Assembly (NCBI GenBank): GCA_030267565.1
Contig: BRXU01000020.1
Coordinates: 2,125,501 to 2,189,500, forward strand
DNA from: Pleodorina starrii
Lineage: Eukaryota; Chlorophyta; Chlorophyceae; Chlamydomonadales; Volvocaceae
DNA: 64,000 nt
Reading direction: 5' to 3'
The notes below the pieces were generated by a model. That model was not told the DNA's origin. It made no database searches and saw only the letters and a list, made by a program, of their open reading frames with translations. Below, in pieces: positions 12,824-34,803 of the stretch (its first letter is position 1; each line of letters opens with the position of its first letter). Position numbers and translations under genes: made by a program.

Positions 12824-12862
12824 ATATGAGACCTACGCGCTAACCAACTGCGCCACCTCCGC
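12824..12862 (-). pseudogene. 5' half of a tRNA-Met gene at the left edge of the array
   Basis: The acceptor 5' strand, D arm, 5' anticodon stem and CAT anticodon match the array genes. Homology stops two bases into the intron, and no T arm or 3' acceptor strand follows. This marks the left breakpoint of the array. Confidence 0.85.
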
Positions 12863-13260
12863 AGCTTGCCGTACACCGGGGTGAACAAGCACCCGGGTTG
12901 CCACCTAACCATCGAGCTGCCACCACCCAGCCCCACCTCTCCTTTCGCGCTCGTTCCAACTTGTCGCCTTACCTTGCCCCCAGTCGCAATCCCCATCCTC
13001 GCCCTGATTTGCATTCGGTTTCCACCACCACCCTCGCTCACACCACCTCCCTCCGTCCTACACTTGATTTCACCTCTGACCACCCTATCTAACAACCTTT
13101 CTGGAGAACTGCCATTTACTTCTCTTCTACTGTTGTCACTGCTGCTTGTAAAGGTGCCCTCGCAAAGTGCCGAGCCTGCTCAATCAACGTGCACCTGTCC
13201 TCAATAAGCACACTTGGCCAGGACTTGGCAATGATGGCTCTACAGCATAAGCTGTGGACT

Positions 13261-13354
13261 TGCGGAGAGAGGGGTTCGAACCCTCGACCTTAGTATGTCC
13301 CAAGTCATACAGAGTATATGAGACCTACGCGCTAACCATCTGCGCCACCTCCGC
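13261..13354 (-). tRNA. tRNA-Met(CAT), array copy 1
   Basis: Outermost complete copy. It folds as a cloverleaf with an intron, but has C40 to A, which breaks a pair of the anticodon stem, and one changed D-loop base. It may be inactive. Confidence 0.7.
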
Positions 13355-13752
13355 AGCTTGCCGTACACCGGGGTGAACAAGCACCCGGGTTGCCACCTAA
13401 CTATCGAGCTGCCACCACCCAGCCCCACCTCTCCTTTCGCGCTCGTTCCAACTTGTCGCCTTACCTTGCCCCCAGTCGCAATCCCCATCCTCGCCCTGAT
13501 TTGCATTCGGTTTCCACCACCACCCTCGCTCACACCACCTCCCTCCGTCCTACACTTGATTTCACCTCTGACCACCCTATCTAACAACCTTTCTGGAGAA
13601 CTGCCATTTACTTCTCTTCTACTGTTGTCACTGCTGCTTTTAAAGGTGCCCTCGCAAAGTGCCGAGCCTGCTCAATCAACGTGCACCTGTCCTCAATAAG
13701 CACACTTGGCCAGGACTTGGCAATGATGGCTCTACAGCATAAGCTGTGGGCT

Positions 13753-13846
13753 TGCGGAGAGAGGGGTTCGAACCCTCGACCTTAGGATATCCCAAGTCAT
13801 ACAGAATATATGAGACCTACGCGCTAGCCAACTGCGCCACCTCCGC
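13753..13846 (-). tRNA. tRNA-Met(CAT), array copy 2
   Basis: All stems intact. The D loop reads GGCTA, as in plant elongator tRNA-Met, and there is one intron base change (also in copy 3). Confidence 0.88.
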
Positions 13847-14244
13847 AGCTTGCCGTACACCGGGGTGAACAAGGACCCGGGTTGCCACCCAACCATCGAG
13901 CTGCCACCACCCAGCCCCACCTCTCCTTTCGCGCTCGTTCCAACTTGTCGCCTTACCTTGCCCCCAGTCGCAATCCTCATCCTCGCCCTGATTTGCATTC
14001 GGTTTCCACCACCACCCTCGCTCACACCACCTCCCTCCGTCCTACACTTGATTTCACCTCTGACCACCCTATCTAACAACCTTTCTGGAGAACTGCCATT
14101 TACTTCTCTTCTACTGTTGTCACTGCTGCTTTTAAAGGTGCCCTAGCAAAGTGCCGAGCCTGCTCAATCAACGTGCACCTGTCCTCAATAAGCACACTTG
14201 GCCAGGACTTGGCAATGATGGCTCTACAGCATAAGCTGTGGGCT

Positions 14245-14338
14245 TGCGGAGAGAGGGGTTCGAACCCTCGACCTTAGGATATCCCAAGTCATACAGAATA
14301 TATGAGACCTACGCGCTAACCAACTGCGCCACCTCCGC
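14245..14338 (-). tRNA. tRNA-Met(CAT), array copy 3; reference description
   Basis: Read on the minus strand: acceptor GCGGAGG/TCTCCGC with discriminator A, D stem GCGC/GCGC, anticodon loop CTCATA with CAT, T arm GAGGG-TTCGAAC-CCCTC. A 20-nt intron follows base 37. The mature length is 74 nt before CCA. The A box (TGGCGCAGTTGG) and B box (GGTTCGAACCC) are intact. The intron's TATGA pairs with TCATA at the anticodon, the usual eukaryotic pre-tRNA fold. The non-pairing T31/T39 and the intron position match plant elongator tRNA-Met, not initiator tRNA. One intron base differs from the majority. Confidence 0.93.
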
Positions 14339-14736
14339 AGCTTGCCGTACACCGGGGTGAACAAGCACCCGGGTTGCCACCCAACCATCGAGCTGCCACC
14401 ACCCAGCCCCACCTCTCCTTTCGCGCTCGTTCCAACTTGTCGCCTTACCTTGCCCCCAGTCGCAATCCTCATCCTCGCCCTGATTTGCATTCGGTTTCCA
14501 CCACCACCCTCGCTCACACCACCTCCCTCCGTCCTACACTTGATTTCACCTCTGACCACCCTATCTAACAACCTTTCTGGAGAACTGCCATTTACTTCTC
14601 TTCTACTGTTGTCACTGCTGCTTTTAAAGGTGCCCTAGCAAAGTGCCGAGCCTGCTCAATCAACGTGCACCTGTCCTCAATAAGCACACTTGGCCAGGAC
14701 TTGGCAATGATGGCTCTACAGCATAAGCTGTGGACT

Positions 14737-14830
14737 TGCGGAGAGAGGGGTTCGAACCCTCGACCTTAGGATGTCCCAAGTCATACAGAGTATATGAGAC
14801 CTACGCGCTAACCAACTGCGCCACCTCCGC
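14737..14830 (-). tRNA. tRNA-Met(CAT), array copy 4
   Basis: All stems intact. The base at the 3' intron/exon junction is G where most copies have A (GATGTCC on the plus strand). Confidence 0.92.
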
Positions 14831-15228
14831 AGCTTGCCGTACACCGGGGTGAACAAGCACCCGGGTTGCCACCCAACCATCGAGCTGCCACCACCCAGCC
14901 CCACCTCTCCTTTCGCGCTCGTTCCAACTTGTCGCCTTACCTTGCCCCCAGTCGCAATCCCCATCCTCGCCCTGATTTGCATTCGGTTTCCACCACCACC
15001 CTCGCTCACACCACCTCCCTCCGTCCTACACTTGATTTCACCTCTGACCACCCTATCTAACAACCTTTCTGGAGAACTGCCATTTACTTCTCTTCTACTG
15101 TTGTCACTGCTGCTTTTAAAGGTGCCCTAGCAAAGTGCCGAGCCTGCTCAATCAACGTGCACCTGTCCTCAATAAGCACACTTGGCCAGGACTTGGCAAT
15201 GATGGCTCTACAGCATAAGCTGTGGACT

Positions 15229-15322
15229 TGCGGAGAGAGGGGTTCGAACCCTCGACCTTAGGATGTCCCAAGTCATACAGAGTATATGAGACCTACGCGC
15301 TAACCAACTGCGCCACCTCCGC
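15229..15322 (-). tRNA. tRNA-Met(CAT), array copy 5
   Basis: Identical in the tRNA to copy 4. Confidence 0.92.
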
Positions 15323-15720
15323 AGCTTGCCGTACACCGGGGTGAACAAGCACCCGGGTTGCCACCCAACCATCGAGCTGCCACCACCCAGCCCCACCTCT
15401 CCTTTCGCGCTCGTTCCAACTTGTCGCCTTACCTTGCCCCCAGTCGCAATCCCCATCCTCGCCCTGATTTGCATTCGGTTTCCACCACCACCCTCGCTCA
15501 CACCATCTCCCTCCGTCCTACACTTGATTTCACCTCTGACCACCCTATCTAACAACCTTTCTGGAGAACTGCCATTTACTTCTCTTCTACTGTTGTCACT
15601 GCCGCTTGTAAAGGTGCCCTCGCAAAGTGCCGAGCCTGCTCAATCAGCGTGCACCTGTCATCAATAAGCACACTTGGCCAGGACTTGGCAATGATGGCTC
15701 TACAGCATAAGCTGTGGACT

Positions 15721-15814
15721 TGCGGAGAGAGGGGTTCGAACCCTCGACCTTAGGATGTCCCAAGTCATACAGAGTATATGAGACCTACGCGCTAACCAAC
15801 TGCGCCACCTCCGC
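15721..15814 (-). tRNA. tRNA-Met(CAT), array copy 6
   Basis: Identical in the tRNA to copies 4 and 5. Confidence 0.92.
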
Positions 15815-16212
15815 AGCTTGCCGTACACCGGGGTGAACAAGCACCCGGGTTGCCACCCAACCATCGAGCTGCCACCACCCAGCCCCACCTCTCCTTTCGC
15901 GCTCGTTCCAACTTGTCGCCTTACCTTGCCCCCAGTCGCAATCCCCATCCTCGCCCTGATTTGCATTCGGTTTCCACCACCACCCTCGCTCACACCACCT
16001 CCCTCCGTCCTACACTTGATTTCACCTCTGACCACCCTATCTAACAACCTTTCTGGAGAACTGCCATTTACTTCTCTTCTACTGTTGTCACTGCTGCTTG
16101 TAAAGGTGCCCTCGCAAAGTGCCGAGCCTGCTCAATCAGCGTGCACCTGTCATCAATAAGCACACTTGGCCAGGACTTGGCAATGATGGCTCTACAGCAT
16201 AAGCTGTGGGCT

Positions 16213-16306
16213 TGCGGAGAGAGGGGTTCGAACCCTCGACCTTAGGATATCCCAAGTCATACAGAGTATATGAGACCTACGCGCTAACCAACTGCGCCAC
16301 CTCCGC
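16213..16306 (-). tRNA. tRNA-Met(CAT), array copy 7 (majority sequence)
   Basis: This is the majority tRNA and intron sequence of the array, with all stems paired. The neighbouring spacer has a one-base C insertion. Confidence 0.93.
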
Positions 16307-16705
16307 AGCTTGCCGTACACCGGGGTGAACAAGCACCCCGGGTTGCCACTCAACCATCGAGCTGCCACCACCCAGCCCCACCTCTCCTTTCGCGCTCGTT
16401 CCAACTTGTCGCCTTACCTTGCCCCCAGTCGCAATCCCCATCCTCGCCCTGATTTGCATTCGGTTTCCACCACCACCCTCGCTCACACCACCTCCCTCCG
16501 TCCTACACTTGATTTCACCTCTGACCACCCTATCTAACAACCTTTCTGGAGAACTGCCATTTACTTCTCTTCTACTGTTGTCACTGCCGCTTGTAAAGGT
16601 GCCCTCGCAAAGTGCCGAGCCTGCTCAATCAGCGTGCACCTGTCATCAATAAGCACACTTGGCCAGGACTTGGCAATGATGGCTCTACAGCATAAGCTGT
16701 GGGCT

Positions 16706-16799
16706 TGCGGAGAGAGGGGTTCGAACCCTCGACCTTAGGATATCCCAAGTCATACAGAGTATATGAGACCTACGCGCTAACCAACTGCGCCACCTCCGC
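16706..16799 (-). tRNA. tRNA-Met(CAT), array copy 8
   Basis: Majority sequence. Its spacer shares rare variants with that of copy 24. Confidence 0.93.
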
Positions 16800-17197
16800 A
16801 GCTTGCCGTACACCGGGGTGAACAAGCACCCCGATTGCCACTCAACCATCGAGCTGCCACCACCCAGCCCCACCTCTCCTTTCGCGCTCGTTCCAACTTG
16901 TCGCCTTACCTTGCCCCCAGTCGCAATCCCCATCCTCGCCCTGATTTGCATTCGGTTTCCACCACCACCCTCGCTCACACCATCTCCCTCCGTCCTACAC
17001 TTGATTTCACCTCTGGCCACCCTATCTAACAACCTTTCTGGAGAACTGCCATTTACTTCTCTTCTACTGTTGTCACTGCTGCTTTTAAAGGTGCCCTAGC
17101 AAAGTGCCGAGCCTGCTCAATCAACGTGCACCTGTCCTCAATAAGCACACTTGGCCAGGACTTGGCAATGATGGCTCTACAGCATAAGCTGTGGACT

Positions 17198-17291
17198 TGC
17201 GGAGAGAGGGGTTCGAACCCTCGACCGTAGGATATCCCAAGTCATACAGAGTATATGAGACCTACGCGCTAACCAACTGCGCCACCTCCGC
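17198..17291 (-). tRNA. tRNA-Met(CAT), array copy 9
   Basis: Majority sequence except A44 to C in the variable loop. Stems are intact. Confidence 0.9.
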
Positions 17292-17689
17292 AGCTTGCCG
17301 TACACCGGGGTGAACAAGCACCCGGGTTGCCACTCAACCATCGAGCTGCCACCACCCAGCCCCACCTCTCCTTTCGCGCTCGTTCCAACTTGTCGCCTTA
17401 CCTTGCCCCCAGTCGCAATCCCCATCCTCGCCCTGATTTGCATTCGGTTTCCACCACCACCCTCGCTCACACCACCTCCCTCCGTCCTACACTTGATTTC
17501 ACCTCTGACCACCCTATCTAACAACCTTTCTGGAGAACTGCCATTTACTTCTCTTCTACTGTTGTCACTGCTGCTTGTAAAGGTGCCCTCGCAAAGTGCC
17601 GAGCCTGCTCAATCAGCGTGCACCTGTCCTCAATAAGCACACTTGGCCAGGACTTGGCAATGATGGCTCTACAGCATAAGCTGTGGGCT

Positions 17690-17783
17690 TGCGGAGAGAG
17701 GGGTTCGAACACTCGACCTTAGGATATCCCAAGTCATACAGAGTATATGAGACCTACGCGCTAACCAACTGTGCCACCTCCGC
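17690..17783 (-). tRNA. tRNA-Met(CAT), array copy 10, two stem mismatches
   Basis: G52 to T leaves a T-stem mismatch with C62, and G12 to A leaves a D-stem mismatch with C23. The same double variant occurs in copies 12, 22, 23, 25 and 34. It may be a weak or non-functional tRNA. Confidence 0.75.
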
Positions 17784-18181
17784 AGCTTGCCGTACACCGG
17801 GGTGAACAAGCACCCGGGTTGCCACTCAACCATCGAGCTGCCACCACCCAGCCCCACCTCTCCTTTCGCGCTCGTTCCAACTTGTCGCCTTACCTTGCCC
17901 CCAGTCGCAATCCCCATCCTCGCCCTGATTTGCATTCGGTTTCCACCACCACCCTCGCTCACACCACCTCCCTCCGTCCTACACTTGATTTCACCTCTGA
18001 CCACCCTATCTAACAACCTTTCTGGAGAACTGCCATTTACTTCTCTTCTACTGTTGTCACTGCTGCTTGTAAAGGTGCCCTCGCAAAGTGCCGAGCCTGC
18101 TCAATCAACGTGCACCTGTCCTCAATAAGCACACTTGGCCAGGACTTGGCAATGATGGCTCTACAGCATAAGCTGTGGGCT

Positions 18182-18275
18182 TGCGGAGAGAGGGGTTCGA
18201 ACCCCCGACCTTAAGATGTCCCAAGTCATACAGAGTATATGAGACCTACGCGCTAACCAACTGCGCCACCTCCGC
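18182..18275 (-). tRNA. tRNA-Met(CAT), array copy 11
   Basis: A50 to G and C41 to T both turn Watson-Crick pairs into G-T wobbles, so the fold is kept. Same type as copy 24. Confidence 0.85.
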
Positions 18276-18673
18276 AGCTTGCCGTACACCGGGGTGAACA
18301 AGCACCCCGGTTGCCACTCAACCATCGAGCTGCCACCACCCAGCCCCACCTCTCCTTTCGCGCTCGTTCCAACTTGTCGCCTTACCTTGCCCCCAGTCGC
18401 AATCCCCATCCTCGCCCTGGTTTGCATTCGGTTTCCACCACCACCCTCGCTCACACCACCTCCCTCCGTCCTACACTTGATTTCACCTCTGACCACCCTA
18501 TCTAACAACCTTTCTGGAGAACTGCCATTTACTTCTCTTCTACTGTTGTCACTGCTGCTTTTAAAGGTGCCCTCGCAAAGTGCCGAGCCTGCTCAATCAA
18601 CGTGCACCTGTCCTCAATAAGCACACTTGGCCAGGACTTGGCAATGATGGCTCTACAGCATAAGCTGTGGACT

Positions 18674-18767
18674 TGCGGAGAGAGGGGTTCGAACACTCGA
18701 CCTTAGGATATCCCAAGTCATACAGAGTATATGAGACCTACGCGCTAACCAACTGTGCCACCTCCGC
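18674..18767 (-). tRNA. tRNA-Met(CAT), array copy 12, two stem mismatches
   Basis: Same double T-stem and D-stem mismatch as copy 10. Confidence 0.75.
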
Positions 18768-19165
18768 AGCTTGCCGTACACCGGGGTGAACAAGCACCCG
18801 GGTTGCCACTCAACCATCGAGCTGCCACCACCCAGCCCCACCTCTCCTTTCGCGCTCGTTCCAACTTGTCGCCTTACCTTGCCCCCAGTCGCAATCCCCA
18901 TCCTCGCCCTGATTTGCATTCGGTTTCCACCACCACCCTCGCTCACACCACCTCCCTCCGTCCTACACTTGATTTCACCTCTGACCACCCTATCTAACAA
19001 CCTTTCTGGAGAACTGCCATTTACTTCTCTTCTACTGTTGTCACTGCTGCTTTTAAAGGTGCCCTCGCAAAGTGCCGAGCCTGCTCAATCAACGTGCACC
19101 TGTCCTCAATAAGCACACTTGGCCAGGACTTGGCAATGATGGCTCTACAGCATAAGCTGTGGACT

Positions 19166-19259
19166 TGCGGAGAGAGGGGTTCGAACCCTCGACCTTAGGA
19201 TGTCCCAAGTCATACAGAGTATATGAGACCTACGCGCTAACCAACTGCGCCATCTCCGC
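19166..19259 (-). tRNA. tRNA-Met(CAT), array copy 13
   Basis: G7 to A replaces the acceptor G-T wobble with an A-T pair. Same variant in copies 26 and 36. The spacer on its 3' flank of the plus strand is a 486-bp type. Confidence 0.9.
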
Positions 19260-19651
19260 AGCTTGCCGTACACCGGGGTGAACAAGCACCCGGGTTGCCA
19301 CTCAACCATCGAGCTGCCACCACCCAGCCCCACCTCTCCTTTCGCGCTCGTTCCAACTTGTCGCCTTACCTTGCCCCCAGTCGCAATCCCCATCCTCGCC
19401 CTGATTTTCATTCGGTTTCCACCACCACCCTCGCTCACACCACCTCCCTCCGTCCTACACTTGATTTCACCTCTGACCACCCTATCTAACAACCTTTCTG
19501 GAGAACTGCCATTTACTTCTCTTCTACTGTTGTCACTGCTGCTTTTAAAGGTGCCCTAGCAAAGTGCCGAGCCTGCTCAATCAACGTGCACCTGTCTTCA
19601 ATAAGCACACTTGGCCAGGACTTGATGGCTCTACAGCATAAGCTGTGGGCT

Positions 19652-19745
19652 TGCGGAGAGAGGGGTTCGAACCCTCGACCTTAGGATAACCCAAGTCATA
19701 CAGAGTATATGAGACCTACGCGCTAACCAACTGCGCCACCTCCGC
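19652..19745 (-). tRNA. tRNA-Met(CAT), array copy 14
   Basis: Stems intact. One base differs at the end of the intron (GATAACCC on the plus strand), as in copies 17, 21, 27, 37 and 44. Confidence 0.92.
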
Positions 19746-20143
19746 AGCTTGCCGTACACCGGGGTGAACAAGCACCCCGGTTGCCACTCAACCATCGAGC
19801 TGCCACCACCCAGCCCCACCTCTCCTTTCGCGCTCGTTCCAACTTGTCGCCTTACCTTGCCCCCAGTCGCAATCCCCATCCTCGCCCTGATTTGCATTCG
19901 GTTTCCACCACCACCCTCGCTCACACCACCTCCCTCCGTCCTACACTTGATTTCACCTCTGACCACCCTATCTAACAACCTTTCTGGAGAACTGCCATTT
20001 ACTTCTCTTCTACTGTTGTCACTGCCGCTTGTAAAGGTGCCCTCGCAAAGTGCCGAGCCTGCTCAATCAGCGTGCACCTGTCATCAATAAGCACACTTGG
20101 CCAGGACTTGGCAATGATGGCTCTACAGCATAAGCTGTGGGCT

Positions 20144-20237
20144 TGCGGAGAGAGGGGTTCGAACCCTCGACCTTAGGATATCCCAAGTCATACAGAGTAT
20201 ATGAGACCTACGCGCTAACCAACTGCGCCACCTCCGC
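20144..20237 (-). tRNA. tRNA-Met(CAT), array copy 15
   Basis: Majority sequence. Confidence 0.93.
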
Positions 20238-20635
20238 AGCTTGCCGTACACCGGGGTGAACAAGCACCCCGGTTGCCACTCAACCATCGAGCTGCCACCA
20301 CCCAGCCCCACCTCTCCTTTCGCGCTCGTTCCAACTTGTCGCCTTACCTTGCCCCCAGTCGCAATCCCCATCCTCGCCCTGGTTTGCATTCGGTTTCCAC
20401 CACCACCCTCGCTCACACCACCTCCCTCCGTCCTACACTTGATTTCACCTCTGACCACCCTATCTAACAACCTTTCTGGAGAACTGCCATTTACTTCTCT
20501 TCTACTGTTGTCACTGCTGCTTTTAAAGGTGCCCTCGCAAAGTGCCGAGCCTGCTCAATCAACGTGCACCTGTCCTCAATAAGCACACTTGGCCAGGACT
20601 TGGCAATGATGGCTCTACAGCATAAGATGTGGACT

Positions 20636-20729
20636 TGCGGAGAGAGGGGTTCGAACACTCGACCTTAGGATATCCCAAGTCATACAGAGTATATGAGACC
20701 TACGCGCTAACCAACTGCGCCACCTCCGC
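20636..20729 (-). tRNA. tRNA-Met(CAT), array copy 16, T-stem mismatch
   Basis: G52 to T mismatch only. The hairpin behind the gene is also changed (GCTGT arm altered), as in copy 34. Confidence 0.78.
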
Positions 20730-21127
20730 AGCTTGCCGTACACCGGGGTGAACAAGCACCCGGGTTGCCACTCAACCATCGAGCTGCCACCACCCAGCCC
20801 CACCTCTCCTTTCGCGCTCGTTCCAACTTGTCGCCTTACCTTGCCCCCAGTCGCAATCCCCATCCTCGCCCTGATTTGCATTCGGTTTCCACCACCACCC
20901 TCGCTCACACCACCTCCCTCCGTCCTACACTTGATTTCACCTCTGACCACCCTATCTAACAACCTTTCTGGAGAACTGCCATTTACTTCTCTTCTACTGT
21001 TGTCACTGCTGCTTGTAAAGGTGCCCTCGCAAAGTGCCGAGCCTGCTCAATCAGCGTGCACCTGTCTTCAATAAGCACACTTGGCCAGGACTTGGCAATG
21101 ATGGCTCTACAGCATAAGCTGTGGGCT

Positions 21128-21221
21128 TGCGGAGAGAGGGGTTCGAACCCTCGACCTTAGGATAACCCAAGTCATACAGAGTATATGAGACCTACGCGCT
21201 AACCAACTGCGCCACCTCCGC
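21128..21221 (-). tRNA. tRNA-Met(CAT), array copy 17
   Basis: Copy-14 type intron end. Stems intact. Confidence 0.92.
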
Positions 21222-21619
21222 AGCTTGCCGTACACCGGGGTGAACAAGCACCCGGGTTGCCACTCAACCATCGAGCTGCCACCACCCAGCCCCACCTCTC
21301 CTTTCGCGCTCGTTCCAACTTGTCGCCTTACCTTGCCCCCAGTCGCAATCCCCATCCTCGCCCTGATTTGCATTCGGTTTCCACCACCACCCTCGCTTAC
21401 ACCACCTCCCTCCGTCCTACACTTGATTTCACCTCTGACCACCCTATCTAACAACCTTTCTGGAGAACTGCCATTTACTTCTCTTCTACTGTTGTCACTG
21501 CTGCTTGTAAAGGTGCCCTCGCAAAGTGCCGAGCCTGCTCAATCAACGTGCACCTGTCCTCAATAAGCACACTTGGCCAGGACTTGGCAATGATGGCTCT
21601 ACAGCATAAGCTGTGGGCT

Positions 21620-21713
21620 TGCGGAGAGAGGGGTTCGAACCCCCGACCTTAGGATGTCCCAAGTCATACAGAGTATATGAGACCTACGCGCTAACCAACT
21701 GCGCCACCTCCGC
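21620..21713 (-). tRNA. tRNA-Met(CAT), array copy 18
   Basis: A50 to G gives a T-stem wobble. The intron junction base is as in copy 4. Confidence 0.88.
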
Positions 21714-22111
21714 AGCTTGCCGTACACCGGGGTGAACAAGCACCCCGGTTGCCACTCAACCATCGAGCTGCCACCACCCAGCCCCACCTCTCCTTTCGCG
21801 CTCGTTCCAACTTGTCGCCTTACCTTGCCCCCAGTCGCAATCCCCATCCTCGCCCTGATTTGCATTCGGTTTCCACCACCACCCTCGCTCACACCACCTC
21901 CCTCCGTCCTACACTTGATTTCACCTCTGACCACCCTATCTAACAACCTTTCTGGAGAACTGCCATTTACTTCTCTTCTACTGTTGTCACTGCTGCTTTT
22001 AAAGGTGCCCTCGCAAAGTGCCGAGCCTGCTCAATCAACGTGCACCTGTCCTCAATAAGCACACTTGGCCAGGACTTGGCAATGATGGCTCTACAGCATA
22101 AGCTGTGGACT

Positions 22112-22205
22112 TGCGGAGAGAGGGGTTCGAACACTCGACCTTAGGATATCCCAAGTCATACAGAGTATATGAGACCTACGCGCTAACCAACTGCGCCACC
22201 CCCGC
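22112..22205 (-). tRNA. tRNA-Met(CAT), array copy 19, T-stem mismatch
   Basis: G52 to T mismatch plus A5 to G acceptor wobble. Copy 40 carries the same pair of changes. Confidence 0.76.
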
Positions 22206-22603
22206 AGCTTGCCGTACACCGGGGTGAACAAGCACCCGGGTTGCCACTCAACCATCGAGCTGCCACCACCCAGCCCCACCTCTCCTTTCGCGCTCGTTCC
22301 AACTTGTCGCCTTACCTTGCCCCCAGTCGCAATCCCCATCCTCGCCCTGGTTTTCATTCGGTTTCCACCACCACCCTCGCTCACACCACCTCCCTCCGTC
22401 CTACACTTGATTTCACCTCTGACCACCCTATCTAACAACCTTTCTGGAGAACTGCCATTTACTTCTCTTCTACTGTTGTCACTGCTGCTTTTAAAGGTGC
22501 CCTCGCAAAGTGCCGAGCCTGCTCAATCAACGTGCACCTGTCCTCAATAAGCACACTTGGCCAGGACTTGGCAATGATGGCTCTACAGCATAAGCTGTGG
22601 GCT

Positions 22604-22697
22604 TGCGGAGAGAGGGGTTCGAACACTCGACCTTAGGATATCCCAAGTCATACAGAGTATATGAGACCTACGCGCTAACCAACTGCGCCACCTCCGC
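22604..22697 (-). tRNA. tRNA-Met(CAT), array copy 20, T-stem mismatch
   Basis: G52 to T mismatch; otherwise majority sequence. A 486-bp interval follows. Confidence 0.78.
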
Positions 22698-23089
22698 AGC
22701 TTGCCGTACACCGGGGTGAACAAGCACCCGGGTTGCCACTCAACCATCGAGCTGCCACCACCCAGCCCCACCTCTCCTTTCGCGCTCGTTCCAACTTGTC
22801 GCCTTACCTTGCCCCCAGTCGCAATCCCCATCCTCGCCCTGATTTGCATTCGGTTTCCACCACCACCCTCGCTCACACCACCTCCCTCCGTCCTACACTT
22901 GATTTCACCTCTGACCACCCTATCTAACAACCTTTCTGGAGAACTGCCATTTACTTCTCTTCTACTGTTGTCACTGCTGCTTGTAAAGGTGCCCTCGCAA
23001 AGTGCCGAGCCTGCTCAATCAGCGTGCACCTGTCTTCAATAAGCACACTTGGCCAGGACTTGATGGCTCTACAGCATAAGCTGTGGGCT

Positions 23090-23183
23090 TGCGGAGAGAG
23101 GGGTTCGAACCCTCGACCTTAGGATAACCCAAGTCATACAGAGTATATGAGACCTACGCGCTAACCAACTGCGCCACCTCCGC
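23090..23183 (-). tRNA. tRNA-Met(CAT), array copy 21
   Basis: Copy-14 type intron end. Stems intact. Confidence 0.92.
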
Positions 23184-24073: not shown

Positions 24074-24167
24074 TGCGGAGAGAGGGGTTCGAACACTCGA
24101 CCTTAGGATATCCCAAGTCATACAGAGTATATGAGACCTACGCGCTAACCAACTGTGCCACCTCCGC
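24074..24167 (-). tRNA. tRNA-Met(CAT), array copy 23, two stem mismatches
   Basis: Double mismatch type of copy 10. It starts a five-gene run (23-27) whose tRNA variants repeat those of copies 10-14. Confidence 0.75.
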
Positions 24168-24565
24168 AGCTTGCCGTACACCGGGGTGAACAAGCACCCG
24201 GGTTGCCACTCAACCATCGAGCTGCCACCACCCAGCCCCACCTCTCCTTTCGCGCTCGTTCCAACTTGTCGCCTTACCTTGCCCCCAGTCGCAATCCCCA
24301 TCCTCGCCCTGATTTGCATTCGGTTTCCACCACCACCCTCGCTCACACCACCTCCCTCCGTCCTACACTTGATTTCACCTCTGACCACCCTATCTAACAA
24401 CCTTTCTGGAGAACTGCCATTTACTTCTCTTCTACTGTTGTCACTGCTGCTTGTAAAGGTGCCCTCGCAAAGTGCCGAGCCTGCTCAATCAACGTGCACC
24501 TGTCCTCAATAAGCACACTTGGCCAGGACTTGGCAATGATGGCTCTACAGCATAAGCTGTGGGCT

Positions 24566-24659
24566 TGCGGAGAGAGGGGTTCGAACCCCCGACCTTAAGA
24601 TGTCCCAAGTCATACAGAGTATATGAGACCTACGCGCTAACCAACTGCGCCACCTCCGC
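24566..24659 (-). tRNA. tRNA-Met(CAT), array copy 24
   Basis: Double wobble type of copy 11. Confidence 0.85.
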
Positions 24660-25057
24660 AGCTTGCCGTACACCGGGGTGAACAAGCACCCCGGTTGCCA
24701 CTCAACCATCGAGCTGCCACCACCCAGCCCCACCTCTCCTTTCGCGCTCGTTCCAACTTGTCGCCTTACCTTGCCCCCAGTCGCAATCCCCATCCTCGCC
24801 CTGATTTGCATTCGGTTTCCACCACCACCCTCGCTCACACCATCTCCCTCCGTCCTACACTTGATTTCACCTCTGGCCACCCTATCTAACAACCTTTCTG
24901 GAGAACTGCCATTTACTTCTCTTCTACTGTTGTCACTGCCGCTTGTAAAGGTGCCCTAGCAAAGTGCCGAGCCTGCTCAATCAACGTGCACCTGTCCTCA
25001 ATAAGCACACTTGGCCAGGACTTGGCAATGATGGCTCTACAGCATAAGCTGTGGACT

Positions 25058-25151
25058 TGCGGAGAGAGGGGTTCGAACACTCGACCTTAGGATATCCCAA
25101 GTCATACAGAGTATATGAGACCTACGCGCTAACCAACTGTGCCACCTCCGC
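25058..25151 (-). tRNA. tRNA-Met(CAT), array copy 25, two stem mismatches
   Basis: Double mismatch type of copy 10. Confidence 0.75.
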
Positions 25152-25549
25152 AGCTTGCCGTACACCGGGGTGAACAAGCACCCGGGTTGCCACTCAACCA
25201 TCGAGCTGCCACCACCCAGCCCCACCTCTCCTTTCGCGCTCGTTCCAACTTGTCGCCTTACCTTGCCCCCAGTCGCAATCCCCATCCTCGCCCTGATTTG
25301 CATTCGGTTTCCACCACCACCCTCGCTCACACCACCTCCCTCCGTCCTACACTTGATTTCACCTCTGACCACCCTATCTAACAACCTTTCTGGAGAACTG
25401 CCATTTACTTCTCTTCTACTGTTGTCACTGCTGCTTTTAAAGGTGCCCTCGCAAAGTGCCGAGCCTGCTCAATCAACGTGCACCTGTCCTCAATAAGCAC
25501 ACTTGGCCAGGACTTGGCAATGATGGCTCTACAGCATAAGCTGTGGACT

Positions 25550-25643
25550 TGCGGAGAGAGGGGTTCGAACCCTCGACCTTAGGATGTCCCAAGTCATACA
25601 GAGTATATGAGACCTACGCGCTAACCAACTGCGCCATCTCCGC
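25550..25643 (-). tRNA. tRNA-Met(CAT), array copy 26
   Basis: G7 to A acceptor pair, as in copy 13. Followed by a 486-bp interval, again as copy 13. Confidence 0.9.
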
Positions 25644-26035
25644 AGCTTGCCGTACACCGGGGTGAACAAGCACCCGGGTTGCCACTCAACCATCGAGCTG
25701 CCACCACCCAGCCCCACCTCTCCTTTCGCGCTCGTTCCAACTTGTCGCCTTACCTTGCCCCCAGTCGCAATCCCCATCCTCGCCCTGATTTGCATTCGGT
25801 TTCCACCACCACCCTCGCTCACACCACCTCCCTCCGTCCTACACTTGATTTCACCTCTGACCACCCTATCTAACAACCTTTCTGGAGAACTGCCATTTAC
25901 TTCTCTTCTACTGTTGTCACTGCTGCTTGTAAAGGTGCCCTCGCAAAGTGCCGAGCCTGCTCAATCAGCGTGCACCTGTCTTCAATAAGCACACTTGGCC
26001 AGGACTTGATGGCTCTACAGCATAAGCTGTGGGCT

Positions 26036-26129
26036 TGCGGAGAGAGGGGTTCGAACCCTCGACCTTAGGATAACCCAAGTCATACAGAGTATATGAGACC
26101 TACGCGCTAACCAACTGCGCCACCTCCGC
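26036..26129 (-). tRNA. tRNA-Met(CAT), array copy 27
   Basis: Copy-14 type intron end. It has 486-bp intervals on both sides. Confidence 0.92.
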
Positions 26130-26521
26130 AGCTTGCCGTACACCGGGGTGAACAAGCACCCGGGTTGCCACCTAACCATCGAGCTGCCACCACCCAGCCC
26201 CACCTCTCCTTTCGCGCTCGTTCCAACTTGTCGCCTTACCTTGCCCCCAGTCGCAATCCCCATCCTCGCCCTGATTTGCATTCGGTTTCCACCACCACCC
26301 TCGCTCACACCACCTCCCTCCGTCCTACACTTGATTTCACCTCTGACCACCCTATCTAACAACCTTTCTGGAGAACTGCCATTTACTTCTCTTCTACTGT
26401 TGTCACTGCTGCTTTTAAAGGTGCCCTAGCAAAGTGCCGAGCCTGCTCAATCAACGTGCACCTGTCTTCAATAAGCACACTTGGCCAGGACTTGATGGCT
26501 CTACAGCATAAGCTGTGGGCT

Positions 26522-26615
26522 TGCGGAGAGAGGGGTTCGAACCCTCGACCTTAGGATATCCCAAGTCATACAGAGTATATGAGACCTACGCGCTAACCAA
26601 CTGCGCCACCTCCGC
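26522..26615 (-). tRNA. tRNA-Met(CAT), array copy 28
   Basis: Majority sequence. It begins a run of six identical tRNA genes (28-33). Confidence 0.93.
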
Positions 26616-27013
26616 AGCTTGCCGTACACCGGGGTGAACAAGCACCCGGGTTGCCACTCAACCATCGAGCTGCCACCACCCAGCCCCACCTCTCCTTTCG
26701 CGCTCGTTCCAACTTGTCGCCTTACCTTGCCCCCAGTCGCAATCCCCATCCTCGCCCTGATTTGCATTCGGTTTCCACCACCACCCTCGCTCACACCACC
26801 TCCCTCCGTCCTACACTTGATTTCACCTCTGACCACCCTATCTAACAACCTTTCTGGAGAACTGCCATTTACTTCTCTTCTACTGTTGTCACTGCTGCTT
26901 GTAAAGGTGCCCTCGCAAAGTGCCGAGCCTGCTCAATCAACGTGCACCTGTCCTCAATAAGCACACTTGGCCAGGACTTGGCAATGATGGCTCTACAGCA
27001 TAAGCTGTGGGCT

Positions 27014-27107
27014 TGCGGAGAGAGGGGTTCGAACCCTCGACCTTAGGATATCCCAAGTCATACAGAGTATATGAGACCTACGCGCTAACCAACTGCGCCA
27101 CCTCCGC
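27014..27107 (-). tRNA. tRNA-Met(CAT), array copy 29
   Basis: Majority sequence. Confidence 0.93.
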
Positions 27108-27505
27108 AGCTTGCCGTACACCGGGGTGAACAAGCACCCGGGTTGCCACTCAACCATCGAGCTGCCACCACCCAGCCCCACCTCTCCTTTCGCGCTCGTT
27201 CCAACTTGTCGCCTTACCTTGCCCCCAGTCGCAATCCCCATCCTCGCCCTGATTTGCATTCGGTTTCCACCACCACCCTCGCTCACACCACCTCCCTCCG
27301 TCCTACACTTGATTTCACCTCTGACCACCCTATCTAACAACCTTTCTGGAGAACTGCCATTTACTTCTCTTCTACTGTTGTCACTGCTGCTTGTAAAGGT
27401 GCCCTCGCAAAGTGCCGAGCCTGCTCAATCAGCGTGCACCTGTCTTCAATAAGCACACTTGGCCAGGACTTGGCAATGATGGCTCTACAGCATAAGCTGT
27501 GGGCT

Positions 27506-27599
27506 TGCGGAGAGAGGGGTTCGAACCCTCGACCTTAGGATATCCCAAGTCATACAGAGTATATGAGACCTACGCGCTAACCAACTGCGCCACCTCCGC
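27506..27599 (-). tRNA. tRNA-Met(CAT), array copy 30
   Basis: Majority sequence. Confidence 0.93.
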
Positions 27600-27997
27600 A
27601 GCTTGCCGTACACCGGGGTGAACAAGCACCCCGGTTGCCACTCAACCATCGAGCTGCCACCACCCAGCCCCACCTCTCCTTTCGCGCTCGTTCCAACTTG
27701 TCGCCTTACCTTGCCCCCAGTCGCAATCCCCATCCTCGCCCTGATTTGCATTCGGTTTCCACCACCACCCTCGCTCACACCACCTCCCTCCGTCCTACAC
27801 TTGATTTCACCTCTGACCACCCTATCTAACAACCTTTCTGGAGAACTGCCATTTACTTCTCTTCTACTGTTGTCACTGCTGCTTGTAAAGGTGCCCTCGC
27901 AAAGTGCCGAGCCTGCTCAATCAACGTGCACCTGTCCTCAATAAGCACACTTGGCCAGGACTTGGCAATGATGGCTCTACAGCATAAGCTGTGGGCT

Positions 27998-28091
27998 TGC
28001 GGAGAGAGGGGTTCGAACCCTCGACCTTAGGATATCCCAAGTCATACAGAGTATATGAGACCTACGCGCTAACCAACTGCGCCACCTCCGC
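27998..28091 (-). tRNA. tRNA-Met(CAT), array copy 31
   Basis: Majority sequence. Confidence 0.93.
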
Positions 28092-28489
28092 AGCTTGCCG
28101 TACACCGGGGTGAACAAGCACCCGGGTTGCCACTCAACCATCGAGCTGCCACCACCCAGCCCCACCTCTCCTTTCGCGCTCGTTCCAACTTGTCGCCTTA
28201 CCTTGCCCCCAGTCGCAATCCCCATCCTCGCCCTGATTTGCATTCGGTTTCCACCACCACCCTCGCTCACACCACCTCCCTCCGTCCTACACTTGATTTC
28301 ACCTCTGACCACCCTATCTAACAACCTTTCTGGAGAACTGCCATTTACTTCTCTTCTACTGTTGTCACTGCTGCTTGTAAAGGTGCCCTCGCAAAGTGCC
28401 GAGCCTGCTCAATCAACGTGCACCTGTCCTCAATAAGCACACTTGGCCAGGACTTGGCAATGATGGCTCTACAGCATAAGCTGTGGGCT

Positions 28490-28583
28490 TGCGGAGAGAG
28501 GGGTTCGAACCCTCGACCTTAGGATATCCCAAGTCATACAGAGTATATGAGACCTACGCGCTAACCAACTGCGCCACCTCCGC
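28490..28583 (-). tRNA. tRNA-Met(CAT), array copy 32
   Basis: Majority sequence. Confidence 0.93.
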
Positions 28584-28981
28584 AGCTTGCCGTACACCGG
28601 GGTGAACAAGCACCCGGGTTGCCACTCAACCATCGAGCTGCCACCACCCAGCCCCACCTCTCCTTTCGCGCTCGTTCCAACTTGTCGCCTTACCTTGCCC
28701 CCAGTCGCAATCCCCATCCTCGCCCTGATTTGCATTCGGTTTCCACCACCACCCTCGCTCACACCACCTCCCTCCGTCCTACACTTGATTTCACCTCTGA
28801 CCACCCTATCTAACAACCTTTCTGGAGAACTGCCATTTACTTCTCTTCTACTGTTGTCACTGCTGCTTGTAAAGGTGCCCTCGCAAAGTGCCGAGCCTGC
28901 TCAATCAACGTGCACCTGTCCTCAATAAGCACACTTGGCCAGGACTTGGCAATGATGGCTCTACAGCATAAGCTGTGGGCT

Positions 28982-29075
28982 TGCGGAGAGAGGGGTTCGA
29001 ACCCTCGACCTTAGGATATCCCAAGTCATACAGAGTATATGAGACCTACGCGCTAACCAACTGCGCCACCTCCGC
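28982..29075 (-). tRNA. tRNA-Met(CAT), array copy 33
   Basis: Majority sequence. Confidence 0.93.
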
Positions 29076-29473
29076 AGCTTGCCGTACACCGGGGTGAACA
29101 AGCACCCGGGTTGCCACTCAACCATCGAGCTGCCACCACCCAGCCCCACCTCTCCTTTCGCGCTCGTTCCAACTTGTCGCCTTACCTTGCCCCCAGTCGC
29201 AATCCCCATCCTCGCCCTGATTTGCATTCGGTTTCCACCACCACCCTCGCTCACACCACCTCCCTCCGTCCTACACTTGATTTCACCTCTGACCACCCTA
29301 TCTAACAACCTTTCTGGAGAACTGCCATTTACTTCTCTTCTACTGTTGTCACTGCTGCTTTTAAAGGTGCCCTCGCAAAGTGCCGAGCCTGCTCAATCAA
29401 CGTGCACCTGTCCTCAATAAGCACACTTGGCCAGGACTTGGCAATGATGGCTCTACAGCATAAGATGTGGACT

Positions 29474-29567
29474 TGCGGAGAGAGGGGTTCGAACACTCGA
29501 CCTTAGGATATCCCAAGTCATACAGAGTATATGAGACCTACGCGCTAACCAACTGTGCCACCTCCGC
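29474..29567 (-). tRNA. tRNA-Met(CAT), array copy 34, two stem mismatches
   Basis: Double mismatch type of copy 10. The 3' hairpin is also altered, as at copy 16. Confidence 0.74.
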
Positions 29568-29965
29568 AGCTTGCCGTACACCGGGGTGAACAAGCACCCG
29601 GGTTGCCACTCAACCATCGAGCTGCCACCACCCAGCCCCACCTCTCCTTTCGCGCTCGTTCCAACTTGTCGCCTTACCTTGCCCCCAGTCGCAATCCCCA
29701 TCCTCGCCCTGATTTGCATTCGGTTTCCACCACCACCCTCGCTCACACCACCTCCCTCCGTCCTACACTTGATTTCACCTCTGACCACCCTATCTAACAA
29801 CCTTTCTGGAGAACTGCCATTTACTTCTCTTCTACTGTTGTCACTGCTGCTTGTAAAGGTGCCCTCGCAAAGTGCCGAGCCTGCTCAATCAACGTGCACC
29901 TGTCCTCAATAAGCACACTTGGCCAGGACTTGGCAATGATGGCTCTACAGCATAAGCTGTGGGCT

Positions 29966-30059
29966 TGCGGAGAGAGGGGTTCGAACCCTCGACCTTAGGA
30001 TATCCCAAGTCATACAGAGTATATGAGACCTACGCGCTAACCAACTGCGCCACCTCCGC
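29966..30059 (-). tRNA. tRNA-Met(CAT), array copy 35
   Basis: Majority sequence. The adjoining spacer lacks one C and has a C-to-A change near 30393. Confidence 0.93.
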
Positions 30060-30456
30060 AGCTTGCCGTACACCGGGGTGAACAAGCACCCGGGTTGCCA
30101 CTCAACCATCGAGCTGCCACCACCCAGCCCCACCTCTCCTTTCGCGCTCGTTCCAACTTGTCGCCTTACCTTGCCCCCAGTCGCAATCCCCATCCTCGCC
30201 CTGATTTGCATTCGGTTTCCACCACCACCCTCGCTCACACCACCTCCCTCCGTCCTACACTTGATTTCACCTCTGACCACCCTATCTAACAACCTTTCTG
30301 GAGAACTGCCATTTACTTCTCTTCTACTGTTGTCACTGCTGCTTGTAAAGGTGCCCTCGCAAAGTGCCGAGCCTGCTCAATCAACGTGCACATGTCTCAA
30401 TAAGCACACTTGGCCAGGACTTGGCAATGATGGCTCTACAGCATAAGCTGTGGGCT

Positions 30457-30550
30457 TGCGGAGAGAGGGGTTCGAACCCTCGACCTTAGGATATCCCAAG
30501 TCATACAGAGTATATGAGACCTACGCGCTAACCAACTGCGCCATCTCCGC
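30457..30550 (-). tRNA. tRNA-Met(CAT), array copy 36
   Basis: G7 to A acceptor pair as in copies 13 and 26, here with the majority intron. Confidence 0.91.
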
Positions 30551-30948
30551 AGCTTGCCGTACACCGGGGTGAACAAGCACCCGGGTTGCCACTCAACCAT
30601 CGAGCTGCCACCACCCAGCCCCACCTCTCCTTTCGCGCTCGTTCCAACTTGTCGCCTTACCTTGCCCCCAGTCGCAATCCCCATCCTCGCCCTGATTTGC
30701 ATTCGGTTTCCACCACCACCCTCGCTCACACCACCTCCCTCCGTCCTACACTTGATTTCACCTCTGACCACCCTATCTAACAACCTTTCTGGAGAACTGC
30801 CATTTACTTCTCTTCTACTGTTGTCACTGCTGCTTGTAAAGGTGCCCTCGCAAAGTGCCGAGCCTGCTCAATCAGCGTGCACCTGTCTTCAATAAGCACA
30901 CTTGGCCAGGACTTGGCAATGATGGCTCTACAGCATAAGCTGTGGGCT

Positions 30949-31042
30949 TGCGGAGAGAGGGGTTCGAACCCTCGACCTTAGGATAACCCAAGTCATACAG
31001 AGTATATGAGACCTACGCGCTAACCAACTGCGCCACCTCCGC
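30949..31042 (-). tRNA. tRNA-Met(CAT), array copy 37
   Basis: Copy-14 type intron end. Confidence 0.92.
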
Positions 31043-31440
31043 AGCTTGCCGTACACCGGGGTGAACAAGCACCCGGGTTGCCACTCAACCATCGAGCTGC
31101 CACCACCCAGCCCCACCTCTCCTTTCGCGCTCGTTCCAACTTGTCGCCTTACCTTGCCCCCAGTCGCAATCCCCATCCTCGCCCTGATTTGCATTCGGTT
31201 TCCACCACCACCCTCGCTCACACCACCTCCCTCCGTCCTACACTTGATTTCACCTCTGACCACCCTATCTAACAACCTTTCTGGAGAACTGCCATTTACT
31301 TCTCTTCTACTGTTGTCACTGCTGCTTGTAAAGGTGCCCTCGCAAAGTGCCGAGCCTGCTCAATCAGCGTGCACCTGTCCTCAATAAGCACACTTGGCCA
31401 GGACTTGGCAATGATGGCTCTACAGCATAAGCTGTGGGCT

Positions 31441-31534
31441 TGCGGAGAGAGGGGTTCGAACCCTCGACCTTAGGATATCCCAAGTCATACAGAGTATATG
31501 AGACCTACGCGCTAACCAACTGCGCCACCTCCGC
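31441..31534 (-). tRNA. tRNA-Met(CAT), array copy 38
   Basis: Majority sequence. Confidence 0.93.
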
Positions 31535-31932
31535 AGCTTGCCGTACACCGGGGTGAACAAGCACCCGGGTTGCCACTCAACCATCGAGCTGCCACCACCC
31601 AGCCCCACCTCTCCTTTCGCGCTCGTTCCAACTTGTCGCCTTACCTTGCCCCCAGTCGCAATCCCCATCCTCGCCCTGATTTGCATTCGGTTTCCACCAC
31701 CACCCTCGCTCACACCACCTCCCTCCGTCCTACACTTGATTTCACCTCTGACCACCCTATCTAACAACCTTTCTGGAGAACTGCCATTTACTTCTCTTCT
31801 ACTGTTGTCACTGCCGCTTGTAAAGGTGCCCTCGCAAAGTGCCGAGCCTGCTCAATCAGCGTGCACCTGTCATCAATAAGCACACTTGGCCAGGACTTGG
31901 CAATGATGGCTCTACAGCATAAGCTGTGGGCT

Positions 31933-32026
31933 TGCGGAGAGAGGGGTTCGAACCCTCGACCTTAGGATATCCCAAGTCATACAGAGTATATGAGACCTAC
32001 GCGCTAACCAACTGCGCCACCTCCGC
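31933..32026 (-). tRNA. tRNA-Met(CAT), array copy 39
   Basis: Majority sequence. Confidence 0.93.
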
Positions 32027-32424
32027 AGCTTGCCGTACACCGGGGTGAACAAGCACCCGGGTTGCCACTCAACCATCGAGCTGCCACCACCCAGCCCCAC
32101 CTCTCCTTTCGCGCTCGTTCCAACTTGTCGCCTTACCTTGCCCCCAGTCGCAATCCCCATCCTCGCCCTGATTTGCATTCGGTTTCCACCACCACCCTCG
32201 CTCACACCACCTCCCTCCGTCCTACACTTGATTTCACCTCTGACCACCCTATCTAACAACCTTTCTGGAGAACTGCCATTTACTTCTCTTCTACTGTTGT
32301 CACTGCTGCTTGTAAAGGTGCCCTCGCAAAGTGCCGAGCCTGCTCAATCAACGTGCACCTGTCCTCAATAAGCACACTTGGCCAGGACTTGGCAATGATG
32401 GCTCTACAGCATAAGCTGTGGACT

Positions 32425-32518
32425 TGCGGAGAGAGGGGTTCGAACACTCGACCTTAGGATATCCCAAGTCATACAGAGTATATGAGACCTACGCGCTAAC
32501 CAACTGCGCCACCCCCGC
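32425..32518 (-). tRNA. tRNA-Met(CAT), array copy 40, T-stem mismatch
   Basis: Same G52 to T and A5 to G combination as copy 19. Confidence 0.76.
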
Positions 32519-32916
32519 AGCTTGCCGTACACCGGGGTGAACAAGCACCCGGGTTGCCACTCAACCATCGAGCTGCCACCACCCAGCCCCACCTCTCCTT
32601 TCGCGCTCGTTCCAACTTGTCGCCTTACCTTGCCCCCAGTCGCAATCCCCATCCTCGCCCTGGTTTTCATTCGGTTTCCACCACCACCCTCGCTCACACC
32701 ACCTCCCTCCGTCCTACACTTGATTTCACCTCTGACCACCCTATCTAACAACCTTTCTGGAGAACTGCCATTTACTTCTCTTCTACTGTTGTCACTGCTG
32801 CTTGTAAAGGTGCCCTCGCAAAGTGCCGAGCCTGCTCAATCAGCGTGCACCTGTCCTCAATAAGCACACTTGGCCAGGACTTGGCAATGATGGCTCTACA
32901 GCATAAGCTGTGGGCT

Positions 32917-33010
32917 TGCGGAGAGAGGGGTTCGAACCCTCGACCTTAGGATATCCCAAGTCATACAGAGTATATGAGACCTACGCGCTAACCAACTGCG
33001 CCACCTCCGC
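32917..33010 (-). tRNA. tRNA-Met(CAT), array copy 41
   Basis: Majority sequence. Confidence 0.93.
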
Positions 33011-33408
33011 AGCTTGCCGTACACCGGGGTGAACAAGCACCCGGGTTGCCACTCAACCATCGAGCTGCCACCACCCAGCCCCACCTCTCCTTTCGCGCTC
33101 GTTCCAACTTGTCGCCTTACCTTGCCCCCAGTCGCAATCCCCATCCTCGCCCTGATTTGCATTCGGTTTCCACCACCACCCTCGCTCACACCACCTCCCT
33201 CCGTCCTACACTTGATTTCACCTCTGACCACCCTATCTAACAACCTTTCTGGAGAACTGCCATTTACTTCTCTTCTACTGTTGTCACTGCTGCTTGTAAA
33301 GGTGCCCTCGCAAAGTGCCGAGCCTGCTCAATCAACGTGCACCTGTCCTCAATAAGCACACTTGGCCAGGACTTGGCAATGATGGCTCTACAGCATAAGC
33401 TGTGGGCT

Positions 33409-33502
33409 TGCGGAGAGAGGGGTTCGAACCCTCGACCTTAGGATATCCCAAGTCATACAGAGTATATGAGACCTACGCGCTAACCAACTGCGCCACCTCC
33501 GC
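33409..33502 (-). tRNA. tRNA-Met(CAT), array copy 42
   Basis: Majority sequence. Confidence 0.93.
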
Positions 33503-33900
33503 AGCTTGCCGTACACCGGGGTGAACAAGCACCCGGGTTGCCACTCAACCATCGAGCTGCCACCACCCAGCCCCACCTCTCCTTTCGCGCTCGTTCCAAC
33601 TTGTCGCCTTACCTTGCCCCCAGTCGCAATCCCCATCCTCGCCCTGATTTGCATTCGGTTTCCACCACCACCCTCGCTCACACCACCTCCCTCCGTCCTA
33701 CACTTGATTTCACCTCTGACCACCCTATCTAACAACCTTTCTGGAGAACTGCCATTTACTTCTCTTCTACTGTTGTCACTGCTGCTTGTAAAGGTGCCCT
33801 CGCAAAGTGCCGAGCCTGCTCAATCAACGTGCACCTGTCCTCAATAAGCACACTTGGCCAGGACTTGGCAATGATGGCTCTACAGCATAAGCTGTGGACT

Positions 33901-33994
33901 TGCGGAGAGAGGGGTTCGAACACTCGACCTTAGGATATCCCAAGTCATACAGAGTATATGAGACCTACGCGCTAACCAACTGCGCCACCTCCGC
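33901..33994 (-). tRNA. tRNA-Met(CAT), array copy 43, T-stem mismatch
   Basis: G52 to T mismatch only. Confidence 0.78.
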
Positions 33995-34392
33995 AGCTTG
34001 CCGTACACCGGGGTGAACAAGCACCCGGGTTGCCACTCAACCATCGAGCTGCCACCACCCAGCCCCACCTCTCCTTTCGCGCTCGTTCCAACTTGTCGCC
34101 TTACCTTGCCCCCAGTCGCAATCCCCATCCTCGCCCTGATTTGCATTCGGTTTCCACCACCACCCTCGCTCACACCACCTCCCTCCGTCCTACACTTGAT
34201 TTCACCTCTGACCACCCTATCTAACAACCTTTCTGGAGAACTGCCATTTACTTCTCTTCTACTGTTGTCACTGCTGCTTGTAAAGGTGCCCTCGCAAAGT
34301 GCCGAGCCTGCTCAATCAGCGTGCACCTGTCTTCAATAAGCACACTTGGCCAGGACTTGGCAATGATGGCTCTACAGCATAAGCTGTGGGCT

Positions 34393-34486
34393 TGCGGAGA
34401 GAGGGGTTCGAACCCTCGACCTTAGGATAACCCAAGTCATACAGAGTATATGAGACCTACGCGCTAACCAACTGCGCCACCTCCGC
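34393..34486 (-). tRNA. tRNA-Met(CAT), array copy 44 (last)
   Basis: Copy-14 type intron end, stems intact. On the minus strand this is the first gene of the array. Its upstream spacer on the plus-strand right side is cut at 34803. Confidence 0.92.
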
Positions 34487-34803
34487 AGCTTGCCGTACAC
34501 CGGGGTGAACAAGCACCCGGGTTGCCACTCAACCATCGAGCTGCCACCACCCAGCCCCACCTCTCCTTTCGCGCTCGTTCCAACTTGTCGCCTTACCTTG
34601 CCCCCAGTCGCAATCCCCATCCTCGCCCTGATTTGCATTCGGTTTCCACCACCACCCTCGCTCACACCACCTCCCTCCGTCCTACACTTGATTTCACCTC
34701 TGACCACCCTATCTAACAACCTTTCTGGAGAACTGCCATTTACTTCTCTTCTACTGTTGTCACTGCTGCTTGTAAAGGTGCCCTAGCAAAGTGCCGAGCC
34801 TGC

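Follow-up and report, generated by a model that had tools for sequence, protein, structure and literature searches.

The window analysed here, a 64,000-nucleotide stretch of the green alga Pleodorina starrii (contig BRXU01000020.1, positions 2,125,501 to 2,189,500; contig C20 in our numbering), contains one tandem array of transfer RNA (tRNA) genes at window positions 12824-34803, which correspond to C20:2138324-2160303. Tandem Repeats Finder (TRF) describes the array as 44.7 copies of a 492-bp unit with 98% matches. ARAGORN predicts 44 tRNA genes for the window, and every one is on the minus strand and lies within the array (13261..34486); 42 of them are labelled Met(CAT) and two are returned as '???', with CAT read as CATA. 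The Rfam family RF00005 recovers the identical set of 44 genes at 40.7-59.6 bits, compared with a gathering score of 29. All three programs therefore agree with the first-pass annotation of this DNA, which had proposed 44 tandem tRNA-Met(CAU) genes on the minus strand of one 22-kb array. Among the 43 complete units the length is 492 bp, save for four units of 486 bp, one of 493 bp and one of 491 bp. The left end of the array falls inside a tRNA of which only the 5' half is present (12824..12862, minus strand; read from the sequence and called by neither ARAGORN nor Rfam), the right end falls in the spacer, and the sequences flanking the two sides are different.

The array gene encodes a mature tRNA of 74 bases, and its 20-nt intron lies one base after the anticodon. 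In the example unit U05 the gene occupies 15229..15322 (Rfam match and alignment) and the intron 15265-15284 (alignment and mature sequence), while what we take to be the A box and the B box, assigned by hand from the consensus, lie at 15304-15315 and 15240-15250, all on the minus strand. On searching the assembly (136,057,477 bases in 95 contigs), the mature sequence of 24 of the 44 copies was found to equal that of two dispersed elongator tRNA-Met (eMet) genes on contigs C16 and C5. Because of this identity the array tRNA is elongator tRNA-Met, intron included, as had been annotated, and the initiator (iMet) is a separate gene. A third intact dispersed eMet gene, on C15, differs by one base from the C16/C5 mature sequence, and the intron of the dispersed genes measures 18 nt versus 20 nt in the array, some of whose exon alleles are also specific to it. 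A gapped eMet pattern gave 44 matches in the genome, of which 41 fall in the array and 3 are dispersed, the three array copies that escape it doing so owing to sequence changes; by this pattern, three intact elongator genes lie outside the array. A further relative, with a changed 3' end, was seen at C15:1842320. For the initiator, a pattern built on a plant anticodon arm returned no matches, and a shorter core later located it; at C5:605933, the 5' half of an initiator tRNA-Met is fused to unrelated sequence.

A 25-nt spacer probe, allowing up to 3 mismatches, matched 45 times across the 136-Mb genome, with all 45 matches inside the array. This confinement rules out a short interspersed nuclear element (SINE) or dispersed repeat, in which a tRNA head would be joined to an unrelated body. 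The satellite-like nature first ascribed to the array is upheld. The entire unit gave four further matches in the genome, covering query positions 1-106 at most, in a search that skips very common words. The spacer of the example unit (15323..15720) contains no second RNA above chance in Rfam at E-values up to 5 and no open reading frame (ORF) of at least 150 aa. A coding unit was considered, 492 being divisible by 3, yet no ORF of at least 150 aa overlaps 12500-35000, and the longest stop-to-stop frames in the array are of 147 aa. A higher-order repeat was likewise rejected, as the mean unit difference at lags 1-24 shows no period. TRF reports solely the 492-bp row within 12824-34803, that is, no short tandem repeats, and a search for a hairpin 3' of the tRNA gave an unremarkable fold z-score of -1.45 for tRNA plus flank.

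Variation was counted over the 43 complete units, leaving out the two partial end units and ignoring indels, and the tRNA stretch was defined as the tRNA with one base on either side (96 sites). Thirty-three sites are variable. In the tRNA stretch 13 of the 96 sites vary, as against 20 of the other 396 (Fisher p=0.0056), and the variable sites lie nearer the tRNA centre than random sites would (P=0.003, or P=0.026 with a free centre, the best being unit column 55). Exon and intron show no difference in this respect (10/76 and 3/20 variable sites). Pairwise diversity is 0.020 in the tRNA, 0.016 in the 5' flank and 0.020 in the 3' flank, versus 0 and 0.006 in the central spacer, and an invariant run of 82 bp, the longest in the unit, falls short of significance (P=0.077). 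With pairs assigned by hand, all stem pairs are kept in 32 of the 44 copies and a pair is broken in the other 12; the damage, in mature numbering, is G53T in 11 copies (six of which also carry G12A) and C41A in one. The B-box bases are intact in 33 copies, the other 11 being those with G53T. It follows that the earlier description of one complete gene per unit is right about one gene per unit and too generous about completeness, with a broken stem pair in 12 copies and the canonical mature sequence in 24.

Units differ from one another by a mean of 5.9 bases, flat along array distance, and 35 of the 43 are distinct. The four-gamete test is failed by 95 of 276 site pairs, and within the unit r2 decays, the values being 0.13 at first and 0.03 at last. 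The two complete units at the far left hold five of the nine singleton changes, and the mean differences from the consensus by array thirds, left to right, are 5.1, 3.9 and 1.8, as if the latest expansion had taken place at the right. This pattern of variation is in line with what unequal exchange and gene conversion would produce where selection on single copies is weak or absent. Both copy number and allele phase are those of one merged, polished assembly, taken to be that of strain NIES-4479 (a bisexual strain; 95 contigs, 136.1 Mbp), which was assembled from PacBio reads, two assemblies being merged, gap-filled and polished with 150-bp short reads (PMC10256686). Such processing, in combination with an array span of 22 kb that may exceed many reads, could in principle have inflated the copy number or scrambled the units. 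We consider this extremely improbable, as the 35 distinct units, the left-right gradient and the unlike flanks speak against an artefact, and a collapse of copies is judged likelier than inflation.

The first-pass annotation regarded a 44-copy array in a green alga as unusual; of greater weight is that at least five further tandem tRNA arrays, with different spacers, occur in the same genome. A genome-wide Rfam search, in which 63 of 4674 candidates were scored, showed many of them to be regularly spaced. A 35-nt core of Lys-CTT matches the genome 44 times, and 35 of these matches form an array (C2:6650967-6735871, ~1425-bp units); its spacing has gaps, and one gap stretch that was inspected holds a truncated unit with no tRNA. 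Many Lys units also show, on the strand opposite the tRNA, a B-box-like site. The Trp+Glu array, of ~1777-bp units, lies at C3:0-125 kb, which is a contig end, and on C59, and accounts for 43 of 46 Trp matches, again with spacing gaps; some of its Glu copies have the anticodon CTT or CTA, not CTC, according to ARAGORN. The Arg-TCG array (C2:6518881-6519601) has five genes in a 162-bp unit with TTTT directly 3' of the tRNA. The iMet+Tyr array (C36:423291-535804) accounts for 67 of the 75 genome matches of a 13-nt initiator core, mostly 1137 bp apart, and its second tRNA, ~20 bp downstream of iMet, is Leu by ARAGORN and was read by eye as an intron-containing Tyr. The Asn+Ala array (C48:297501-324500) has a 761-bp unit, with 26 copies in the 21.5 kb inspected, and a second tRNA a few bases downstream of Asn (Rfam), read by eye as an intron-containing Ala-AGC. 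The iMet+Tyr and Asn+Ala arrays were not yet known when the initiator and A-box patterns were picked.

A Phe pattern gave six scattered genome matches, all four inspected being tRNA-Phe, while an Asp pattern gave seven matches versus ten for its control, with one of four inspected being tRNA-Asp, and is a weak test. As a control, 25 loci at dispersed tRNAs or pattern matches (76 kb) and six random 4-kb places were without a tandem array of period 100 or more; this control is small and not all random, and its 3-kb loci cannot reveal long units. The same test flagged 8 of 12 loci from array or paired-tRNA regions. On comparison of units, the 15 aligned iMet+Tyr units (one double-length unit having been dropped) have zero variable tRNA sites and are 0.2% different, although with nine variable sites in total this invariance alone is not significant. 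Similarly, the Asn gene is invariant in 20 Asn+Ala units, which have three variable sites in all, and 23 of 28 Lys copies are identical to the reference, their loci being partly chosen for a high tRNA score. Among the arrays with units compared, the eMet array has the most altered tRNA copies.

The tRNA strand of the entire eMet array is without any TTTT, and the first one past the left edge lies 550 bp beyond it (12274..12277, minus strand; sequence scan). A TTTT follows within 8 bp in two of the three intact dispersed eMet genes and in four of the five dispersed Lys genes inspected, the fifth having it at 38. Amongst the other arrays, TTTT occurs within 8 bp in the Arg, Trp and Glu units and once shortly 3' of Tyr in the iMet+Tyr unit; for the Lys array, TTTT comes at 117 in one of two units and is missing over 130 bp in the second. 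The Asn+Ala unit has none, and 16.4 kb of the tRNA strand of that array is free of TTTT, which is not significant alone (chance P ~0.20). Additionally, the AT-rich upstream stretch of some dispersed genes appears by eye to be missing at the array genes.

Taken together with the variation, the confinement of the spacer to one locus and the other tRNA arrays of the genome, these observations lead us to favour, as moderately probable, a tRNA-bearing satellite that is near-neutral per copy and has grown by tandem duplication, unequal exchange and gene conversion. Of the three explanations offered at the outset, the favoured one is thus that of a satellite in which a tRNA lies by chance, with the amendment that the tRNA itself may promote amplification. 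A segment with an elongator tRNA-Met gene would have been duplicated in tandem, after which unequal exchange and gene conversion would have enlarged the array and mixed its alleles. The tRNA gene may have driven the expansion as a replication-stalling site, which extends the statement, made for Entamoeba, that replication-fork barriers turn tRNA genes into hot spots of recombination (PMC2652664). Most array copies would then contribute little mature tRNA and the cell would be served by the dispersed genes, which are probably enough for eMet supply.

Several points weigh against this reading. The chance of a unit without TTTT is about 0.49, so its absence alone is not significant; one of the dispersed eMet genes that are intact also lacks it over 130 bp, and of two Thr genes inspected one has TTTT at 35 and the other none in 130 bp. 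A canonical mature tRNA is still encoded by 24 of the 44 copies and, with pairing by hand, four of seven exon changes at paired positions preserve the pair, which together hint at some selection. Transcription-associated mutation would centre diversity on the tRNA, and the extra variation there could hence reflect expression. Short-read polishing, moreover, could have shuffled alleles. The tRNA genes of the iMet+Tyr, Asn+Ala and Lys arrays are near-invariant, and neutrality is not extended to them.

Some of these points would be expected if the array had been selected for dosage, as was also proposed earlier, or held as a conditional reserve, that is, a transcribed and perhaps stage-specific eMet supply. 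Such a role would be in keeping with the 32 copies that retain every stem pair, the 24 canonical ones and the centring of diversity on the tRNA at column 55, and it has a parallel in the Arabidopsis Ser/Tyr cluster, which is normally silent and active in some root-tip cells (PMC12308677). However, exon conservation is no higher than that of the intron, 12 of the 44 copies are damaged, and both TTTT on the tRNA strand and, by eye, the AT-rich upstream stretch are missing. The damaged copies, the equal variation of exon and intron, the lack of TTTT and the presence of two dispersed genes for the same tRNA disfavour dosage, and we regard it as rather unlikely.

The array may alternatively be a chromatin element, in which arrayed A and B boxes bind TFIIIC unproductively and form a putative boundary, insulator or nuclear anchor. 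The B-box bases are intact in 33 copies while TTTT is absent, and a boundary role has been suggested for a tandem repeat of tRNA genes in human (PMC4041453). Nevertheless, among the 20 of 152 flanking stop-to-stop frames that were scanned there was no Pfam match above the cut-off, and one weak match below it, so two separable domains could not be defined; we deem this role very unlikely. Elsewhere in the window, TRF reports a perfect 148-bp tandem duplication at 39561-39857 and, at 5425-5576, 8.4 perfect copies of an 18-bp repeat. The minus-strand frame at 46306-47370 has a single protein match, a Pleodorina starrii sequence with 100% identity across 74% of the query.

Tandem tRNA arrays are already known from Entamoeba, Arabidopsis, maize and human, and the presence of several in one green alga is a more interesting result than the eMet array alone. 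In Entamoeba most tRNA genes are arrayed and make up more than 10% of the genome (PMC2652664). As in P. starrii, the units are head-to-tail with one or more tRNA genes, there are several arrays per genome, concerted evolution is likely and some tRNAs are still dispersed (PMC2652664). The range of one to five tRNA genes per unit in Entamoeba includes the units seen here, with one gene in eMet, Lys and Arg and two in iMet+Tyr, Trp+Glu and Asn+Ala. In contrast, the P. starrii arrays found occupy less than 0.5 of 136 Mb, which is a lower bound, and the eMet unit lacks the short repeats between genes, a feature that holds for E. histolytica and E. dispar and not for every Entamoeba species (PMC2652664). 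The available account also describes the Entamoeba arrays as without clear pseudogenes, unlike the eMet array with its 12 copies having a broken stem pair, and its authors term the function of tRNA arrays obscure (PMC2652664).

Within the green lineage, the Arabidopsis Ser/Tyr and Pro clusters have about 27 tandem units beside dispersed kin (PMC12308677, PMC11700998), and the same combination of a cluster with dispersed genes of its family is seen here, with 44 arrayed and three intact dispersed genes. The Arabidopsis clusters, however, are methylated and mostly silent, and the Ser/Tyr unit has three tRNAs (PMC12308677, PMC11700998). The Arabidopsis tRNA-Cys cluster resembles the eMet array in having one tRNA per ~420-bp unit, a damaged edge copy and variable tRNAs, but it is Helitron-like, has four to six units and is reported to have termination signals, as against 44 units and no TTTT (PMC10701932). 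The longest single-tRNA tandem run in a flowering-plant survey, a maize tRNA-Ile cluster of 28, was counted by a density rule (3 per kb), so its count is not directly comparable (PMC11700998). The human 1q23.3 repeat is similarly long and tRNA-bearing, with 9-43 units, but its unit is of 7.3 kb and binds CTCF (PMC4041453). Large tRNA clusters occur in several lineages, and in the related alga Volvox carteri 41% of 1051 tRNA genes (tDNAs) are clustered within 1 kb; the available cluster account does not describe array structure (PMC2888827). A literature search, with subscription papers and supplements lying outside it, found no description of P. starrii tRNA arrays, and the word 'tRNA' has no occurrence in the main text of the genome paper.

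A wider interpretation, which we put forward tentatively as a possible one, is that Pleodorina, and perhaps volvocines generally, arrived independently at an Entamoeba-like arrangement, with tRNA genes seeding amplification as replication barriers bound by RNA polymerase III (Pol III). Arrays would then begin as uniform and functional (iMet+Tyr, Asn+Ala) and later decay (eMet), and the TTTT-less eMet (22 kb) and Asn+Ala arrays could give rise to very long polycistronic Pol III transcripts or to chromatin bound by TFIIIC only. Counts of tRNA genes in such genomes should be treated with caution, as they can be dominated by arrays, damaged copies included. The reason for long tandem tRNA arrays is unsettled, and a haploid colonial alga having arrays in different states beside dispersed kin would suit tests of expression, copy number and replication stalling, while its volvocine relatives would permit a comparison of tRNA arrays.

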